Shown here: positions 10,583-32,393 of the stretch, piece by piece
Position numbering within the stretch: position 1 is the stretch's first letter
Layout of the letters: every line of letters begins with the position of its first letter
Source: a virus
IMG/VR virus record: IMGVR_UViG_3300030430_004373
Location: 1 to 32,393 of that record
Reading direction: 5' to 3' (one strand)
Length of the DNA stretch: 32,393 nucleotides
Program-made: the position numbers and the translations under genes
The notes under the pieces: generated by a model
What the model was told of the DNA's origin: nothing
Database searches by the model: none
Seen by the model: only the letters and a program-made list of their open reading frames with translations

Positions 10583-13500
10583 ATGGCTACACGAAAAGAA
10601 CTTAATGAAATTTTAGTTGAATTAGAACCAACTGAAAACATTCTTGAAGAAGAAGAAGAAGAAGAGAAAGAACAAGATTCTGTTTTTGTTAATATTGCAG
10701 AAACTCCTACGTCTGAAGAATTAGATAAAGAACAAGAAAAGAATTTATCTGCAGATACTTTAGATTCAATAGCAAAAGAAGTAGAAGTAAAAAAAAGTTT
10801 TAGAGGTCCATCCTTTTTTGAGTCACAAGGTCCTGCTTTTTCAACAACTTCTTTTGAAGGGATGCCTGACCCAGAAAAACTCAAATCAGACCTTTCAAGT
10901 CTTTATGATTCTTTTACAGGATTTTTTACAGATGTCATACCAGCAGGTTTAAAATCTACTTTTCCTACAGTAGCTAATGCAATAGATATTTATAGACAAA
11001 GAAGAATGACAGAAAATCTTGGAGTTGCAATAGGTGAAGTTGAACCGCCAAGAGAATTTTTTTCTCCAAATCCTTTTATTTTTTCTGATTTAGAAATAGA
11101 TGTTAAAAAAGATGAATACAGAAGATTTCAAGAAGAAACTTGGAACAATACTCCTATAGAAAAGAAAGCAGAAATTGCAGAAAACTTTTTACAGGGTTAT
11201 GAAAAGCTAGAAGCAAGAATACAGGAAAGAGAAAAATATATTAAAGACATTTATGAATCTCATGGTTTAGGGAAAAAAGGTTCCGCTGCTGCTTCAGGGG
11301 TTACGTCTTTTGCACTTATGGCTCCTGCACTAATAGCAACCGCAGCAACTAGAAATCCAAGTTTTGTATATGGGATGTTACCTGCCTTTGGCTTTTTAGA
11401 AGGCTCTGCAACTTACAGAGAATCTATGCAAAGTGGTTTGACACATAGAGAAGCCGTTGATGCTGCTAATTTGTCTGCCGCTTTTGAAATTGGTACCGAA
11501 ATGCTTCCTTTGCCTTATGTGACAAAAGGTCTTACCGCATTTAGAGAAATGAACAAAGATAAATTAAAAAATGTAGTTTTGAACGGTTTTGCAAGTTTAG
11601 GAACAGAATTAGGCGGAGAACAATTAAATACTTTTTTACAAGAAACAAACAAAGCTGTTAGAGGTGTAAAAAATGAACTAAATATAGCTTGGAACCTAAA
11701 AGATGACCCAACCTATCAAGGACCTAGTTGGGTTGATGTATTAAGAGATAATGCCGAAATGACAGCTATAGCGACACTTGTTGGTGCTGGTGGTCTCGTT
11801 ACAACTCAAGGTGCTGTTGCATATTCTCCAGAAATAAAATCATTTTTAAATTCATTGGACCCAAATTTAGCTAGAAGGATTTCAAGAGAACTCGATACCA
11901 TGTCAAGGGAAGTAGAATCTAACTTTCATGCAATGGATGACACATTTTTAGATTTGGCTAAATTTGTAAATAGACAAGGAATATTAGGTAAAAACTTTGG
12001 AAAATTTACACCTAATGAACCAATTGATTTACAAAACCCGAATATAGAACAGCTTCTAAATCCTTCAAGAGAAAGTTTTGAGTTTGGTCCTCCTGATTTT
12101 CTTGTTGATTCTGAACTTGTTAAAAACTTATTAAAAAACGACCAGAATATAACTGAGCTGTCAGAGGAAGAAAAACTTCTTGCTTCAATTTATACAGAAG
12201 CTTTATCAGAGGACATGGGTTTAGATATAGAAGATTTTTTACTTACTAATAAAAATGTTTTAAATATTATGGGTGTTTCTCCAGCTGAAATACTAGACTC
12301 AGAATCTTTCAATCAACAAGTAAAAGACTTTGCAGATAACATTCAAGAAAGAATTACCACAGCAAAAGACAATGTGAAAGAAAATTTACAAAAAGATTTA
12401 GAGACATTAAATAAGTTTATAAATTTTGTTTCATCTGCAGAGACGACAACACCTCAAGCAGTAAGTGCATCCAGAGATATTACAAGAGATGAGTTTCCCG
12501 ACACAGAAGAATATAAAGCACCAATAAAAACTTTGCAAAGTTTTGAATTCAGCGAAGCAGACTCACCTGTCATAGAAGCTTCTCAAGAAGAGTTAAATAC
12601 TATCAAAGAAAACTTTGTTAATGACCTTTTAACTAAGCAAAGCGAAAAAGGTGCAGGATTTATAACAATTAGCGAGTTGCAAGAAACGGAAACGACACAA
12701 GAGGAGGGATTAAGCTTTGAAGTGTTTATGCAAAATTTAAAAGAAACAAATTTGTACAACATACCTGAAGAGGACATAAAAAATATTATTGAAATATCTC
12801 GAGGCAATTTAGAGTTACCAGAGCCAGAATATGCAAAAGATAAAAATATTCAGCCTTCATTAACCTTTCAGGAGCTTAAAGTTGTTGGTAGATATAGAAG
12901 CCCAACGGAAGCAGAAGATTTAAGATTGGCAGAAATTTTGAATATAGCTTTCTCTCTTGGTGTTCCTGAAAAAGCTTTTACAGGTGTTAATGGAATAAAA
13001 ATTCTTAAAAACAAAATTGATGAGTCTCTTAGAGGCGAGTATTACCATAGCAGTGCAAACATTACACTTGATGAAGAATATTTTAATACAGAACAAAATA
13101 AAAATTTTTTAAATTACAATGCAACGGGTACTTTGCTGCATGAGTTAGCACATCACATTGACTTTTCTTACAATCAACGCCCTGATGGCTCTGGAATATC
13201 TCTGGCATTTAACTCCCCACTTTTTGCTTTTCCTGACTTTAAAAAAGAAAACGTAAGATTTGCAGCTAGTGGTCAAAAATTAGAAGAGTTTTCTTTTAAA
13301 ACGGGTGGTGAAGTTTTTAACGAAATATATAATATTTATCGAAACGCAAATTTACAGATACAGTTAGATACTTTGGCATTTGGCAGAAGTATGTCCGAAG
13401 GAGAAGCTAGATTTGAAGCTGGTTTAAAAAATAAAAAAACAGGGGGCTTGTTATCTTATCCAATGCACAGCCTTTTTGTTCATGCTGAAAACGCTTTTAG

Positions 13501-16500
13501 AGTGGCTGCAGTAAGGAAACAAATAAAAGAAGGTGATATTACAATGACACCTGAATTGGAGACTGCACTAAATGAAGTAGAAGGCTACTACAATAATTTT
13601 GGCTTGGCATCTTTGCGAGTTCCGAAAACAACAGAAGAACAAAATAACTTTCCTGAGTTTTTGGCTGCAGAAATGTTTGCACAAGTATTTGCATTAAAAT
13701 ATACTAATTCTGAGTTCTTTAAGGCAAATGCACCAAGAACCACAAAATTAATAGAAGATATAGAAAATGCAATCAGTCTCAACACCTTTAACGAAGTTAG
13801 TAGCGGATTACGAACTGCTTTTGGGTACGATAGTTCCCAGCCAGATTTTGAAATCTACAGACTCAACAAGTCTTTCCTCAACACTAACAGAAGCTTTAGA
13901 GAACAACAAGAAAGTGAACGATTGGGAGAAGATGATAGAACAGATGCAACAGACACAAGAGACGGGCAAGTTACAACAACTAGAGAGGAAGAACGACTTA
14001 GACCGACTACAGGCGAACAAGGCAGCACTCAAAGTTCAAGAGCTGTCGGGTCTGAAACTCTAACTCCTAGAGATGAATCTTCGGGTCATGCCGCAGATTT
14101 TGTCCCCCCACAATACGGACCCCCAGCACACGATTTAAATCAGGAAGCTACAGAAGAATTTACTACAAAAGGCTATTCTGTTTATTCTTTTGATGCAGGG
14201 GAAAACTATGAAAAGTTAAAATATTTTCTTGACGGCAGGTATCAAGAAGAAAGACAGTTAATAAACAAGCTGTTAGAAATAAAAGGTAATCCTGATGCTA
14301 TTTTGACCGTTTATCGAGCAGCTCCTACTGCAGAATTAAGATACGGTGATTTGGTTACATTGACTAAAGAAGATGCAGAGTTTGAAGTAGAAGAATCCAA
14401 AATTACACAAGAACAAATAAATAAAGCAAACAGAGAAAGATTAAGAGAAGAAGATATAGAAAAAAAAGGTGCAGTAGATTTAATCGCTGAAAGAAATAGA
14501 AATATTATGGATAGCCTTTTCCAACCTCAAGATGTAACTCCATCTAAATTACATACTTATGAAATTAGAGCTGGAGATATAAGATTTGATGGCAATGGCG
14601 GACTTACAAGATGGGGCTTTTTCCCTTCAAATGTAGTTGATATAAAAGGTGACAAACCAGCTAAATTAATTAGTTCTAAAAGAAAAGATGCAAAGGAACC
14701 AACTAAAACTCAAGATGAAATAAATAAAGAAAATGCTTTGCTCGATGCAATAGAAGCTGGACAAGTTAGGAAACCCCCAGAAGGACCTCCTCCTCCGCCA
14801 AAAGGACCAGACCCTAATGATGAATTCACGATACCCCAACTAGGTTTTTATAAAGACCTTGTAGAAGCTATTAACATTAAAGTTGCAAATAGATTTGGCA
14901 GACAATGGACTCTTGAAGAAAGCATGATTGAGCAGTTTGGTGAAGCAGGTGTTGTTGAAAGATTAAATCAATTAGGATTAGACCCTGATGCAAAAGATTG
15001 GAGGGTCACGACACAGACAGACATCTATCAAGGTAGAGTTAAAGATTTACTTAGAGACTTACAAGAAGTTTTTTATGAGCCTATGCTTAAATTTTTAACT
15101 TTGAATGCGATAAATGAGACTAAGTATAATCACTTTGTTTACAGTCTTCATGCTCCAGAAAGAAACGCTTATTTGCCTACAAAGTTTACTGAAGATATAG
15201 CAGAAACAGAAGCAGAATTACAAAGATTAGAAGCTGACCCTGATGCTGCAAAGCAAGATATAACAAATATAAAAAGAAAGCTTACTACTTTAAAAAATAA
15301 AATGAAAAAAGCTGAGAGTGGTTCTGGTATGACCACAGAACAAGCAGTTAAAAACTTAGAAGGTTATGGCATCGAATACAGCAATGGAGTTGCAAAACCA
15401 AAAAATAAAAAAGGTGAAAAATATTTACAGGCTTATGAAGACTTTCATAAACCAATGATTGAATATATGCGTAAAGTCTATAACGACTCAGGCTTAATTA
15501 CACAAGAAAGAATTTCAGATTGGAATGAAAGGTACAATTATTATGTTCCTCTCAAAGGCTTTGCAGAAGACACTTTGATAGACCCGAAAACGGGAAGAGA
15601 AATAAAAAGACTCAGCACAAATAATAATTTAATTAAATCCCAAATGACTGTTTCTGGTCCAACGGTAAGAAAAGCTAAAGGTAGAGAATCTTTAGCTGAC
15701 TCACCTTTACAACAATCTGTCGTAGACACTATCTCAGCATTAGTGCAAAGCCAAAAGAATGTAATAGTTAAATCTTTAGCCGATTTATCAAGGGCTTTTC
15801 CTAATGACCAATTTTGGCTTGTTGTTGAAGAGGCTGGTCAGTTAGAGTCTGTTGATGCTTCATGGGATGACTCCAAAGGCAAAAGTAGAGTTGGCTTTAA
15901 AGAAGACGGAGTACAAAAATATGTAGAAATCTATGACAAAAGATTAGCACAAGGCTTTGATGATTTTGATAACACAATAACAAATCCTTTTATGAAGGGA
16001 ATGAGATTTGCTACTAGATATTTATCAATGGTGAATACATCTTTAGACCCAGCCTTTATGATTAATAACTTCATAAGAGATGTGCAAACTGCTTATTTTA
16101 ATTTATTAGCAGAAGAAGAAATAACTAACGGAAGAGCAAAAGGTTTAGATATATCTAAAAAATATTTCACATCTAAAAATATTTTAACTAACTCAGCCCT
16201 ATTAATTAAATTTGAAAAAAATAAAACTCTTGCAAATAAATCTATGAGAGAAGAGATGGCTGAAATGCAAAGAGAGGGTGTAGAAATAAACACTGACACA
16301 ATAAAAGAACTTGGACAAAAGTATGGTCTTTCAGAAAATTTAATTTTAAAAAATGCAAAAATGCTTTTGTTTAAAAAATACGGTGGAGAGACAGGATATA
16401 TTGACCAAAAAAATGTTGAGCAAATGACAAAGGAATTTGAAACTCTAAGGGATATTTACTCTGGCTCAATCAAAGCAAAACCTAAAAAAGTTTTATATGA

Positions 16501-18070
16501 CTCTTTGGCAATCATAGAAAGATTTAATTCAGGTGTTGAGAATGCAGCTAGATTTACTGCTTTTGAGGGATATATAGAAATGATTGGCGGGATTGATGTG
16601 GCTACTCCAAAAGATTTTGAAAAAGCAGCTGTCTTGGCAAAAAACCTTACAATAAACTTTAACAGAATGGGAACTATGGGTCCTACAGCAAACGCACTTT
16701 ACATGTTTTTCAATGCTTCAATACAGGGTTCTGTTAATGTATTTAGAGGTCTAATAGGAAAAGAAAAATCATCAAGAAAAGTAAAAGCAACAGCAGCTTT
16801 AGGTTTGTTAGGTTCGTTATCTACTATGTGGAACATTCTTTATGGAGCAGAAGACGAAGATGATGGTGTTAATTGGTATAAAAAAATACCTGATTGGGAA
16901 AAACAAACTAAATTTATTTTTATGTTTCCAGATATAGATGTTTCTGAGGGTAAGGTACAGATTGATAAATGGGGAACAGGCTCTAAATATTATTTAATTT
17001 CTGATAAAGGAGAAAGAAAGTTACCAATAGGTTTGGGTATTCCAAAGCCTTATGGCTATGCACTGTTCCATGACTTAGGCAGAATTACAACAGAATATGC
17101 TTTAGGCAAAGTTGTAGATAATTATGATGTTTCTTTTCAAGAAGCATCAAGAGACTTAGCCGAGTCTTTACTACATAATTATGCACCTTTAACTTTCTCT
17201 GATAGAGACTCATTTGGGGAAACTGCAACAGTTACTTTTACTCCTTCAGTAGCAAAACCTGTAGTAAATTGGATGCAAAATAAAGACCATTTTGGTTCCC
17301 CTATTAAAACAAGCGAAGATGTAAGAACACTGATTGGCGATACTATGCCAAGGAGTTATAACCAATCACAAAAAGCTTTTGAATTTACTAAAGGTATGAC
17401 TCGTTTTATAAATGATTTAACAGGAGGCAATCAATTTTATTCTGGTGCAGTTGATATAGACCCAAGAACATTACAATATTTTATTGAAGAAGTTACAGGT
17501 GGAACAGGAAGAACTGCTTTTAGATTTTATGAAGCTGGAAAACAATTAACAACAGATTTTACACAGCCAAGTACAGATATTCTTGGAGTGAGAAGGGTGT
17601 TGGCTGGACCCAGAGATTATGTAGATTCTGAAATCTATGAAAGAAATGTGCAAGAGGTACTAAAATTTCAAGGTGCAATGAGAGAATTTGCAGACACTGA
17701 CATAGATGAAGAAAAAATGTCGGAAACTGAAGAAGAATTTAGAAAAAGAATTGGTTCTGGTTTAGAAGATTTGACACTTACAGGTCCAGAAGAAGAAAGA
17801 AAAAAAATGAGAGAGTCTGGGTATGTCTCAATTTACGATGAAACAACTAAATTTATAAAAGAAAAAAATAAAGAATTAAGGCAGTTAAATTTAGATTATC
17901 AGGCAGCTGAAGATTATGATGAAAAAATGGAATTAGAAGCTGAGAAAAAACAAATACAGCTAGATATTTTAGTGAAGAAAAAGAATTTTAATCAAGAATT
18001 TAATGAAATTAAAAAAATGATGGAAAAAGAATTAAAAACAAAAAAATCCGAAGAGGATGAAGAAGATTAG
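10583..18070 (+). CDS. Giant polyvalent-type internal virion protein with HExxH peptidase and ART-like domains
   Basis: A 2495-aa protein, the largest gene here. Residues 1-60 are Glu/Asp rich. About 233-300 hold hydrophobic, Ala-rich helices (SFALMAPALIATAATRNPSF, then GSATYRESMQSG), typical of large ejected phage proteins. A zinc-peptidase motif HELAHH lies at 853-858 (His853, Glu854, His857). About 1240-1345 (YRAAP at 1244, GDLVTLTKEDA, then AGDIRFDGNG and WGFFP) resemble ADP-ribosyltransferase domains of polyvalent proteins. A Pro-rich linker follows near 1400. From about 1815 (SLDPAFMINNFIRD) to 2050 (NFNRMGTMGP ... FFNASIQGS) it resembles a C-terminal 'large polyvalent protein-associated' domain. 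Residues 2400-2495 are charged coiled coil. It probably enters the host with the DNA and modifies host targets; domain assignments are by eye. Confidence 0.75.
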   Translation: MATRKELNEILVELEPTENILEEEEEEEKEQDSVFVNIAETPTSEELDKEQEKNLSADTLDSIAKEVEVKKSFRGPSFFESQGPAFSTTSFEGMPDPEKLKSDLSSLYDSFTGFFTDVIPAGLKSTFPTVANAIDIYRQRRMTENLGVAIGEVEPPREFFSPNPFIFSDLEIDVKKDEYRRFQEETWNNTPIEKKAEIAENFLQGYEKLEARIQEREKYIKDIYESHGLGKKGSAAASGVTSFALMAPALIATAATRNPSFVYGMLPAFGFLEGSATYRESMQSGLTHREAVDAANLSAAFEIGTEMLPLPYVTKGLTAFREMNKDKLKNVVLNGFASLGTELGGEQLNTFLQETNKAVRGVKNELNIAWNLKDDPTYQGPSWVDVLRDNAEMTAIATLVGAGGLVTTQGAVAYSPEIKSFLNSLDPNLARRISRELDTMSREVESNFHAMDDTFLDLAKFVNRQGILGKNFGKFTPNEPIDLQNPNIEQLLNPSRESFEFGPPDFLVDSELVKNLLKNDQNITELSEEEKLLASIYTEALSEDMGLDIEDFLLTNKNVLNIMGVSPAEILDSESFNQQVKDFADNIQERITTAKDNVKENLQKDLETLNKFINFVSSAETTTPQAVSASRDITRDEFPDTEEYKAPIKTLQSFEFSEADSPVIEASQEELNTIKENFVNDLLTKQSEKGAGFITISELQETETTQEEGLSFEVFMQNLKETNLYNIPEEDIKNIIEISRGNLELPEPEYAKDKNIQPSLTFQELKVVGRYRSPTEAEDLRLAEILNIAFSLGVPEKAFTGVNGIKILKNKIDESLRGEYYHSSANITLDEEYFNTEQNKNFLNYNATGTLLHELAHHIDFSYNQRPDGSGISLAFNSPLFAFPDFKKENVRFAASGQKLEEFSFKTGGEVFNEIYNIYRNANLQIQLDTLAFGRSMSEGEARFEAGLKNKKTGGLLSYPMHSLFVHAENAFRVAAVRKQIKEGDITMTPELETALNEVEGYYNNFGLASLRVPKTTEEQNNFPEFLAAEMFAQVFALKYTNSEFFKANAPRTTKLIEDIENAISLNTFNEVSSGLRTAFGYDSSQPDFEIYRLNKSFLNTNRSFREQQESERLGEDDRTDATDTRDGQVTTTREEERLRPTTGEQGSTQSSRAVGSETLTPRDESSGHAADFVPPQYGPPAHDLNQEATEEFTTKGYSVYSFDAGENYEKLKYFLDGRYQEERQLINKLLEIKGNPDAILTVYRAAPTAELRYGDLVTLTKEDAEFEVEESKITQEQINKANRERLREEDIEKKGAVDLIAERNRNIMDSLFQPQDVTPSKLHTYEIRAGDIRFDGNGGLTRWGFFPSNVVDIKGDKPAKLISSKRKDAKEPTKTQDEINKENALLDAIEAGQVRKPPEGPPPPPKGPDPNDEFTIPQLGFYKDLVEAINIKVANRFGRQWTLEESMIEQFGEAGVVERLNQLGLDPDAKDWRVTTQTDIYQGRVKDLLRDLQEVFYEPMLKFLTLNAINETKYNHFVYSLHAPERNAYLPTKFTEDIAETEAELQRLEADPDAAKQDITNIKRKLTTLKNKMKKAESGSGMTTEQAVKNLEGYGIEYSNGVAKPKNKKGEKYLQAYEDFHKPMIEYMRKVYNDSGLITQERISDWNERYNYYVPLKGFAEDTLIDPKTGREIKRLSTNNNLIKSQMTVSGPTVRKAKGRESLADSPLQQSVVDTISALVQSQKNVIVKSLADLSRAFPNDQFWLVVEEAGQLESVDASWDDSKGKSRVGFKEDGVQKYVEIYDKRLAQGFDDFDNTITNPFMKGMRFATRYLSMVNTSLDPAFMINNFIRDVQTAYFNLLAEEEITNGRAKGLDISKKYFTSKNILTNSALLIKFEKNKTLANKSMREEMAEMQREGVEINTDTIKELGQKYGLSENLILKNAKMLLFKKYGGETGYIDQKNVEQMTKEFETLRDIYSGSIKAKPKKVLYDSLAIIERFNSGVENAARFTAFEGYIEMIGGIDVATPKDFEKAAVLAKNLTINFNRMGTMGPTANALYMFFNASIQGSVNVFRGLIGKEKSSRKVKATAALGLLGSLSTMWNILYGAEDEDDGVNWYKKIPDWEKQTKFIFMFPDIDVSEGKVQIDKWGTGSKYYLISDKGERKLPIGLGIPKPYGYALFHDLGRITTEYALGKVVDNYDVSFQEASRDLAESLLHNYAPLTFSDRDSFGETATVTFTPSVAKPVVNWMQNKDHFGSPIKTSEDVRTLIGDTMPRSYNQSQKAFEFTKGMTRFINDLTGGNQFYSGAVDIDPRTLQYFIEEVTGGTGRTAFRFYEAGKQLTTDFTQPSTDILGVRRVLAGPRDYVDSEIYERNVQEVLKFQGAMREFADTDIDEEKMSETEEEFRKRIGSGLEDLTLTGPEEERKKMRESGYVSIYDETTKFIKEKNKELRQLNLDYQAAEDYDEKMELEAEKKQIQLDILVKKKNFNQEFNEIKKMMEKELKTKKSEEDEED

Positions 18071-31100: not shown

Positions 31101-31154
31101 AGGACCAATGATATTAACGGATATAAAAATAAATTAATAGACTTGACAAACAAA

Positions 31155-31179
31155 AAAGGCAGCCCGAAAGCTGCCCTTT
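31155..31179 (-). terminator. Rho-independent terminator for the leftward unit
   Basis: On the minus strand the sequence is GGCAGC, loop TTTCGG, GCTGCC, followed directly by TTTTTT. The six-bp GC stem, extended by AAA/TTT with one bulge, plus a U-tract make a classic terminator after the gene ending at 31196. On the plus strand the T-tract is weaker (CTTTATGTTT), but it may stop rightward transcripts too. Confidence 0.85.
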
Positions 31180-31195: not shown

Positions 31196-31345
31196 TTAGA
31201 AAATTTCTGCTAAATATTCTTTGTTCCTGCCTTCTCTTACTTGAGCATAACCTGCTTCAAGATGAGAGTGAAACCCTGTTTTTTTATACAGTTTTTTTTG
31301 TGCATTTAGTCTTTTAAGTCTAAGTCTTTTTTGTTTTGTATTCAT
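31196..31345 (-). CDS. Small basic protein
   Basis: A 49-aa ORF: MNTKQKRLRLKRLNAQKKLY, then KKTGFHSHLEAGYAQVREGR. Strong AAGGAG before the ATG, and an ATGA overlap with the upstream zinc-ribbon gene. The first half is basic helix, possibly nucleic-acid binding. Last gene before the terminator. Confidence 0.6.
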   Translation of the reverse strand: MNTKQKRLRLKRLNAQKKLYKKTGFHSHLEAGYAQVREGRNKEYLAEIF

Positions 31346-31596
31346 TTTTTCTCCTTGTTTTCTTGACTGTATCTGTAGTCAATCATGTCAAAAACAAACT
31401 GTTGTATAAAAACTAATTCAGCATGAGATAGCTTTCTAAGATAGTTTTGTGTTTTATCAAGAATGCTTTTTTCCCAACCAGAATCATAGCCGCATTTTTT
31501 ACAGAACAAATTGACACCGCTTTCGCTACACCAAAATGAATCCGCTTCTTCACTGCCGCATTCAGGGCAAACTCCTTTACAATGTGCTCCAGACAT
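31342..31596 (-). CDS. Zinc-ribbon protein
   Basis: An 84-aa protein with CPECGSEEADSFWCSESGVN and LFCKKCGYDSGW: two CxxCG knuckles (residues about 10-13 and 32-35), a zinc ribbon, followed by a helical C-terminus (LSHAELVFIQQFVFDMIDY). It could bind DNA, RNA or a protein partner, for instance as a small phage regulator or host takeover factor; not determined. One-base overlap with the upstream gene. Confidence 0.65.
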   Translation of the reverse strand: MSGAHCKGVCPECGSEEADSFWCSESGVNLFCKKCGYDSGWEKSILDKTQNYLRKLSHAELVFIQQFVFDMIDYRYSQENKEKK

Positions 31597-31961
31597 TAAG
31601 ACACCTCCTTTTGTTCTGCTTTTTCTTCTTCAATATCAAAAGCTTTAAAAAAATCATCTGACAATTCAACAATCGTTTCCTTATCTTCTTTTGATAGGTT
31701 TTTTAATTCCCCATCGTAGCCTGAAAATTCTGAAACTCCATCGACATAATTATCAATTCTATAAATCCAATCAAAAAATTCTCTCGAATATTCAGAAGCA
31801 AAATTTTTGTCTTTGAAAAATCCAAGAGTATTTACGTCTTCTGGGTTGAAGTATGTAAACAACTCTAATTGGTCTGAATGTTTTGCGTAAGAATATTCGC
31901 AAATCATTTGCATGATTGTGATTTCTTGCATACTAAATTGTCTAAGTTTTTTGTTTGTCAT
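31596..31961 (-). CDS. Unknown acidic protein, first gene behind promoter copy D
   Basis: A 121-aa acidic protein (MTNKKLRQFSMQEITIMQMI, then aromatic-rich FDWIYRIDNYVDGVSEFSGY and an acidic tail). CGGAGAAAAATATG gives the start, 46 bp downstream of the conserved element at 32007. No family recognised; an acidic, DNA-mimic-like protein is one possibility but unsupported. Confidence 0.6.
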   Translation of the reverse strand: MTNKKLRQFSMQEITIMQMICEYSYAKHSDQLELFTYFNPEDVNTLGFFKDKNFASEYSREFFDWIYRIDNYVDGVSEFSGYDGELKNLSKEDKETIVELSDDFFKAFDIEEEKAEQKEVS

Positions 31962-32041: not shown

Positions 32042-32272
32042 TTATAGTTGGACCTCCTTATAATAAATTTTATCTATACTTATCAAAAATCCATTACCAC
32101 CTACTGAAGGTAATATTCTGATAAAACCTTTTTGTAAGCCTTCTGCAAAGTATTTAGGATTTTTTAGAAGGTCGTGCAAAGAAGATTCTGTCAGTTCATT
32201 CTCTCCACGGGTTTCTAATTCAATACTTACATCTTGTGTCCAAGATTTAAAGTAGCTTATTCTTTTTTTCAT
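32042..32272 (-). CDS. Small unknown protein expressed behind the hammerhead ribozyme
   Basis: A 76-aa protein from ATG 32272 (MKKRISYFKSWTQDVSIELE ... KGFIRILPSVGGNGFLISID). AGGAGAAAAATATG supports this start; the ATG at 32287 would put the ribosome-binding site inside the gene. The protein alternates strands and one helix (SSLHDLLKNPKYFAEGLQ). No family recognised. Its leader carries the self-cleaving ribozyme and a small hairpin, so its message is expected to start with a processed 5' end at about 32323. Confidence 0.65.
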   Translation of the reverse strand: MKKRISYFKSWTQDVSIELETRGENELTESSLHDLLKNPKYFAEGLQKGFIRILPSVGGNGFLISIDKIYYKEVQL

Positions 32273-32303
32273 ATTTTTCTCCTGCATTTCTGCAATTATG
32301 TTT

Positions 32304-32317
32304 GGGAATCATTTCCC
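32304..32317 (-). promoter_or_regulatory. 5' leader hairpin just after the ribozyme cleavage site
   Basis: GGGAA, loop of four, TTCCC: five perfect pairs, beginning six bases after the predicted cleavage point. It would stand near the new 5' end of the mRNA and could protect it from RNase E or limit start-site access. It may also be part of an extended helix I. Confidence 0.5.
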
Positions 32318-32386
32318 GCACTAGACCTGCTTTTTCGGGGGGAAAGAAAAAACAGGTTTCGACTCATAAAGTCTCGTCAGTAGTGC
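32318..32386 (-). ncRNA. Hammerhead self-cleaving ribozyme (helix I open, type I layout)
   Basis: Read on the minus strand: helix I GCACTA; core CTGACGA (CUGANGA); helix II GACT-loop TTATG-AGTC; core GAAA; helix III CCTGTTTTTTC-loop of nine-GAAAAAGCAGG; cleavage triplet GTC; helix I closing strand TAGTGC. All invariant bases are in place: C3U4G5A6, G8A9, G12A13A14, the A15.1-U16.1 pair and C17. Helix III is 11 pairs plus A-U, including one U-G wobble that exists only in minus-strand RNA, fixing the strand. Cleavage is predicted after the base opposite 32324, giving an mRNA that starts opposite 32323. Sequence beyond 32393, possibly part of helix I, is not visible. Confidence 0.9.
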
Positions 32387-32393
32387 TTTAAGC

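Follow-up and report, generated by a model that had tools for sequence, protein, structure and literature searches.

A type I hammerhead ribozyme as probable punctuation in a leftward accessory operon of a temperate phage

What does a hammerhead ribozyme do between two genes of a phage operon? The DNA considered here, referred to as the window, is the whole of a 32.4-kb linear virus record (32,393 nucleotides [nt]) with genes for tail and internal virion proteins, a tyrosine integrase, Erf- and YqaJ-like recombination proteins, an O-like initiator, and DnaB. Its source is a temperate tailed phage, and nucleotide comparison with known phages returned short, chance-like pieces only. The structural module includes a giant 2495-aa protein (positions 10583 to 18070, plus strand). 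Past convergent rightward genes lies a leftward operon that runs from a hammerhead through genes for proteins of 76, 121, and 84 aa to a terminator-like stem-loop (Table 1). A first-pass annotation made from the letters alone had proposed that this hammerhead lies in the leader of a small, early-type gene, that such a placement is rare, and that it may act as an mRNA processing switch.

Read along the minus strand from 32386 to 32318, the sequence contains all invariant hammerhead core positions and three helices, in the order GCACUA-CUGACGA-GACU(UUAUG)AGUC-GAA-ACCUGUUUUUUC(...)GAAAAAGCAGGU-C-UAGUGC. Helix I (GCACUA/UAGUGC) pairs 32386 to 32381 with 32323 to 32318 and is followed by the core segment CUGACGA at 32380 to 32374. 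Helix II is GACU(U)-UAU-(G)AGUC, after which come GAA and then A15.1. Helix III is ACCUG-U-UUUUUC/GAAAAA-G-CAGGU, with a single U-G pair; as the first-pass annotation had observed, the plus strand would have A-C there. The core that defines the class (C3 U4 G5 A6 N7 G8 A9 and G12 A13 A14) is present as CUGACGA and GAA; the core-closing pairs A15.1-U16.1, N10.1-N11.1, and N1.1-N2.1 are A-U, G-C, and A-U; and H17, which in this class is not G, is the C at 32324. Both sequence and fold give a type I topology, with helix I open and loops closing helices II and III. Minimum-free-energy folding of the minus strand predicts the hammerhead structure (-23.6 kcal/mol; z, -2.7), and the same structure is obtained with the leader included (-33.6 kcal/mol; z, -3.7). 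The boundaries and the cleavage position that had been proposed are correct by hammerhead numbering. Since sequence, fold, and an independent-model match agree on a complete core and three helices, the element is, as judged from its sequence, a genuine type I hammerhead.

Table 1. Features of the leftward operon, all on the minus strand of the window
Feature	Positions	Strand	Basis or remark
Putative upstream-gene end, GCUUAAA (7 nt before helix I, up to the record end)	32387..32393	-	Inferred from relatives
Type I hammerhead ribozyme (helices I, II, and III plus catalytic core)	32318..32386	-	Sequence; fold; RF03152, 29.5 bits; covariance model R1, 40.8 bits
Predicted cleavage site, 3' of C17 (32324); 3' product begins at U32323	32323..32324	-	Hammerhead numbering on sequence
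HP1 hairpin, GGGAAAUGAUUCCC, directly after helix I	32304..32317	-	Compensatory changes in relatives; fold
HP2 small hairpin, UGCAGAAAUGCA, adjoining the Shine-Dalgarno sequence with a slight overlap	32283..32294	-	Fold; relatives
Shine-Dalgarno sequence, AGGAG	32283-32279	-	Sequence
Gene for 76-aa orphan protein, behind the hammerhead	32042..32272	-	No relatives found
Gene for 121-aa protein, further down the same operon	31596..31961	-	Homologue in L074/L210 directly behind the orthologous hammerhead
Gene for 84-aa protein with zinc-ribbon-like cysteines, last in the leftward operon	31342..31596	-	
Terminator-like stem-loop and T run at the end of the leftward operon	31154..31179	-	

The independent model, R1, was a covariance model built from 26 equal-length phage hammerheads, with the window and its orthologues left out. 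It finds the window hammerhead with an E value of 3.5e-13, a figure that is only rough because calibration was short. One further R1 match in the window, at 2535 to 2575 (14.9 bits), has mismatched helix pairs and was taken as chance, leaving one hammerhead, at the end of the record. The compensatory changes in helices I to III that had been suggested as a check are present among relatives: in the 26 equal-length sequences, both partners vary at 14 of 17 pairs, with 144 double-changed cells versus 43 in shuffles. These 26 rows were chosen as fully paired, so that the percentage of paired positions carries no evidential weight there. Among 135 core-pattern matches not chosen for pairing, all three stems occur in 78, where shuffled interiors would give 0.03. 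A mechanical scan for the hammerhead core plus three stems made 159 matches when run on the window plus the first 120 viral loci; on the same set it gave zero matches with any of five cores mutated at one base or when the sequences were reversed, and 300 dinucleotide shuffles of the window gave no structured match. The true pattern of the core alone marks at least 120 stretches in viral contigs; with A6 changed to T, it has 24 matches across all viral contigs, none of them structured.

At gathering score, Rfam has no match for the window hammerhead. The best permissive match is RAGATH-1-hammerhead (RF03152), at 29.5 bits (E = 0.0059) against a gathering threshold of 56.3, and Hammerhead_1 (RF00163; gathering threshold, 34) has no match in the window even at E ≤ 10. 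The first-pass annotation had named the lack of an above-threshold hit as grounds for rejection. It is not a valid refutation, because only 1 of 24 structured relatives (from the L007, L087, and L092 loci) passes the gathering score, an L087 copy that matches Hammerhead_1. The window element shares with RF03152 the open helix I, the short helix II, and the core ACUGANGAG...CGAAAC...GUCUA; it differs in that the model's first 21 positions, upstream of helix I, are unmatched, and the model stops at helix I and hence excludes HP1 and HP2. With Hammerhead_1 it shares topology (open helix I) and core, but its helix I is without the internal loop for the classic loop-loop contact.

The gene behind the hammerhead starts at 32272, 51 nt past the predicted cleavage site, with a good Shine-Dalgarno sequence; an alternative ATG at 32287 is without one. 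The ribozyme thus does lie, as proposed, in the leader of a small gene that runs leftward. As for its being of an early type, the evidence points neither way: searches of Pfam, PHROGs, phages, and viral contigs turned up no relative of the 76-aa protein. Because this gene offered no homologues to compare, we based comparisons on the hammerhead and on DnaB instead. DnaB relatives on viral contigs with sufficient flank mostly carry hammerheads, all on the strand opposite dnaB and nearly always 4.4 to 8 kb beyond it (5.06 kb in the window; 9.6 kb in L145). Between 1 and 14 hammerhead matches are present in 19 of 20 long records, and the nearest relatives of the window have 2 to 5 at its array position. 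The densest arrays, with 14 matches each, are in L087 (record G013) and L092 (G012), and each L092 copy stands just before a Shine-Dalgarno sequence and start codon. At 12700 to 12772 (minus strand) of L149, a hammerhead has a repeated GAGCGAAACU segment and an inserted second helix III, apparently a recent rearrangement with its neighbor.

The closest comparison comes from five orthologous loci (L074, L209, L210, L211, and L212), which together with the window have ribozymes 96 to 100% identical, an intact core, and the leader retained; compared with the window's hammerhead alone, their copies are 96 to 99% identical. All five share an upstream gene, which in L210 encodes an ArdC-type protein (ArdcN, 4e-18; MPTase-PolyVal, 3e-41). 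In L074, L210, and L211, GCUUAAA is the last Ala codon and the stop codon of this anti-restriction gene, and we infer from these relatives that the same letters at the edge of the window are its end as well. What follows the hammerhead varies: the 76-aa orphan in the window, a homologue of the 121-aa protein in L074 and L210, and three further unrelated genes in L211, in L209/L127/L208, and in L212. In homologous loci, then, the core is kept and the downstream gene changed, which is the reverse of the broken core with a retained gene that the first-pass annotation had named as grounds for rejection. When junctions with the same upstream gene were compared, using gene calls from a simple script and counting related genomes repeatedly, both sides had a hammerhead in 222 comparisons and one side only in 67 (counted from the hammerhead-bearing side), which indicates that a hammerhead is tied more closely to its position than to the gene behind it. 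In the window, an inverted repeat, GAAUCUAAUG...CAUUAGAUUC, whose arms enclose a 14-nt loop (32030 to 32021 and 32006 to 31997, minus strand), separates the genes for the 76-aa and 121-aa proteins; its site corresponds to the hammerhead position directly before the 121-aa homologue in L074 and L210.

The leader placement that had been called rare turns out to be the rule in a large class. Phage contigs yielded 229 distinct structured relatives, and the mutated-core and reversed controls none. A downstream gene follows 221 of the 229 unique hammerheads, its start a median of 30 nt after the predicted cleavage site; for 195, a Shine-Dalgarno sequence is present. A nearby gene with Shine-Dalgarno sequence and ATG is found on the sense strand in 177 cases and on the antisense strand in 0. 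These downstream genes fall into 158 clusters, and 144 representatives have few Pfam or PHROGs matches, ArdA, an ArdC-type protein, and MazG included. Upstream, an open reading frame ends between -53 and +23 of helix I in 150 of 221 cases, with peaks at -4 to +2, at +10, where the stop is the UGA of CUGANGA, and at +20, where it is a UAA in loop II, and the flanks beyond are nearly empty of such ends; in some copies the stop codon of the upstream gene is part of the catalytic core itself. In bacterial and archaeal genomes, the pattern of the window's subfamily has no matches, and the general pattern is mostly chance (5 of 116 loci structured). Those five type I hammerheads (L251, L280, L295, L327, and L340) are on assembly contigs from sources that include a Nitrososphaeria metagenome-assembled genome and Flavobacterium sp. 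A45; some stand just before a Shine-Dalgarno sequence, and they are perhaps prophages.

Within this class, the window belongs to a subfamily with a distinctive leader. Relatives in general have a conserved UNAWU in loop II and almost always an A before helix I, features that bear on a possible type I tertiary contact between loop II and the periphery of helix I; copies of the window's subfamily have G as the last base of loop II and HP1 after helix I. Most copies whose helix I reads GCAC... bear HP1 0 or 1 base past helix I, followed by AAACA. HP1 thereby occupies the place that conserved A residues hold in other phage hammerheads, and it may influence the speed of the ribozyme. All HP1 pairs are kept in 14 distinct versions, versus 72% for shuffled arms. 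HP1 tends to occur in copies whose loop II has G as its final base (19 of 23 copies with G versus 5 of 134 without; Fisher P = 2e-16, uncorrected for shared ancestry). HP2 reads UGCCUUCGGGCA and UGCCCUAGGGCA in relatives, three versions in all, with pairing kept. A limited literature search, which the original RAGATH paper lay outside, found no earlier description of the fused stop codon, of HP1, or of the association between HP1 and loop II, and these are possibly new leader features.

Taken together, the intact core and helices, their covariation, the sense placement between stop codon and Shine-Dalgarno sequence, the conserved position, and the independence from downstream gene identity argue that the hammerhead is most probably punctuation in the leftward accessory operon, its self-cleavage splitting the mRNA between genes. 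Once transcribed, it would cleave the polycistronic transcript 3' of C32324. The message upstream of the cut, which in relatives carries the ArdC-type anti-restriction gene, would gain a 3' end made of helices II and III with a 2',3'-cyclic phosphate, and the downstream message would begin with a short 5'-OH leader containing two small hairpins and the Shine-Dalgarno sequence. With the stop codon of the upstream gene in contact with the ribozyme, the geometry suggests that a ribosome terminating there would cover helix I and the core, so that cleavage should wait until it departs. Such processing would serve to uncouple the stability and translation of neighboring genes. Self-cleavage of comparable prophage arrays has been demonstrated both in vitro and inside E. 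coli cells (PMC3088659), which, with the conserved core, makes cleavage in the cell probable here too. More tentatively, and with the balance somewhat against it, the phage-specific subfamily may be a gene-to-gene adaptor in which the stop codon is fused to the ribozyme, terminating ribosomes gate cleavage, and HP1, co-evolving with loop II, forms a protected 5' end on the released message.

Several other roles would also place a hammerhead here. The DNA could be the edge of a gene cassette that serves recombination, with RNA cleavage secondary; one orthologous hammerhead and leader before five different genes, behind a shared upstream gene, would fit a cassette edge. With genes called as above and related genomes again counted repeatedly, however, the share of pairs with a common upstream gene that also keep the downstream one is 29% at junctions with a hammerhead, 33% at junctions of the region without one, and 66% elsewhere. 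The region turns over fast and the hammerhead adds nothing detectable, so we rejected it as a recombination hotspot and consider the cassette-edge reading very unlikely. Hammerhead cleavage leaves 5'-OH and 2',3'-cyclic phosphate ends, which chemically allow ligation. The main product might accordingly be a stable or circular RNA, with RtcB or the ribozyme itself joining the ends of a two-hammerhead unit, and many relatives do have hammerheads flanking a gene on both sides. The window has no second hammerhead downstream before the terminator-like stem-loop, on which the other end of a unit would have to rest, and Perreault et al. sought spliced or circular products and found none (PMC3088659); we regard this role as very unlikely.

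A role as ligand- or condition-responsive switch for the 76-aa gene would fit the leader position adjoining the Shine-Dalgarno sequence and the structure that HP1 and HP2 give the leader. Against it, helix III and its loop range from 14 to 62 nt among relatives with no conserved sequence, unrelated genes follow the same hammerhead, and Rfam at gathering score gives no known riboswitch. Of the mRNA processing switch originally suggested, the processing is thus probable; the switch, for want of a conserved aptamer-like part, is highly improbable. We give still less credence to an inactive relic, or a hairpin that merely protects the 3' end of the upstream mRNA. Helix III is indeed strong and hairpin-like, but the core is intact in ribozymes nearly identical across the six orthologous loci, and structured copies occur without core mutants while the helices covary.

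Punctuation of the operon by self-cleavage also agrees with earlier work. Phage hammerheads flanking single genes were already described in 2011, and the window element joins that kind: in prophages, clusters flank single genes or short gene blocks with ardA nearby, and mRNA processing was proposed (PMC3088659). Common to both are several hammerheads in one phage operon around genes of variable identity (one in the window, more in its nearest relatives) and a nearby anti-restriction gene, although this is ArdC in the nearest relatives of the window instead of ArdA. The present phage group differs in being known from viral contigs only, in being all type I, in having its hammerheads placed between a stop codon and the next Shine-Dalgarno sequence, and, in one subfamily, in the covarying hairpin after helix I. 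A limited literature search found no papers on hammerheads in marine phages. As current Rfam thresholds miss most phage members, such hammerheads are overlooked in phage annotation. More than 200 copies with a repeated geometry of stop codon, ribozyme, leader, and Shine-Dalgarno sequence, and a defined operon beside an anti-restriction gene, now make up a hammerhead group in which ribozyme-made single-gene messages, and their timing relative to translation, are directly testable.
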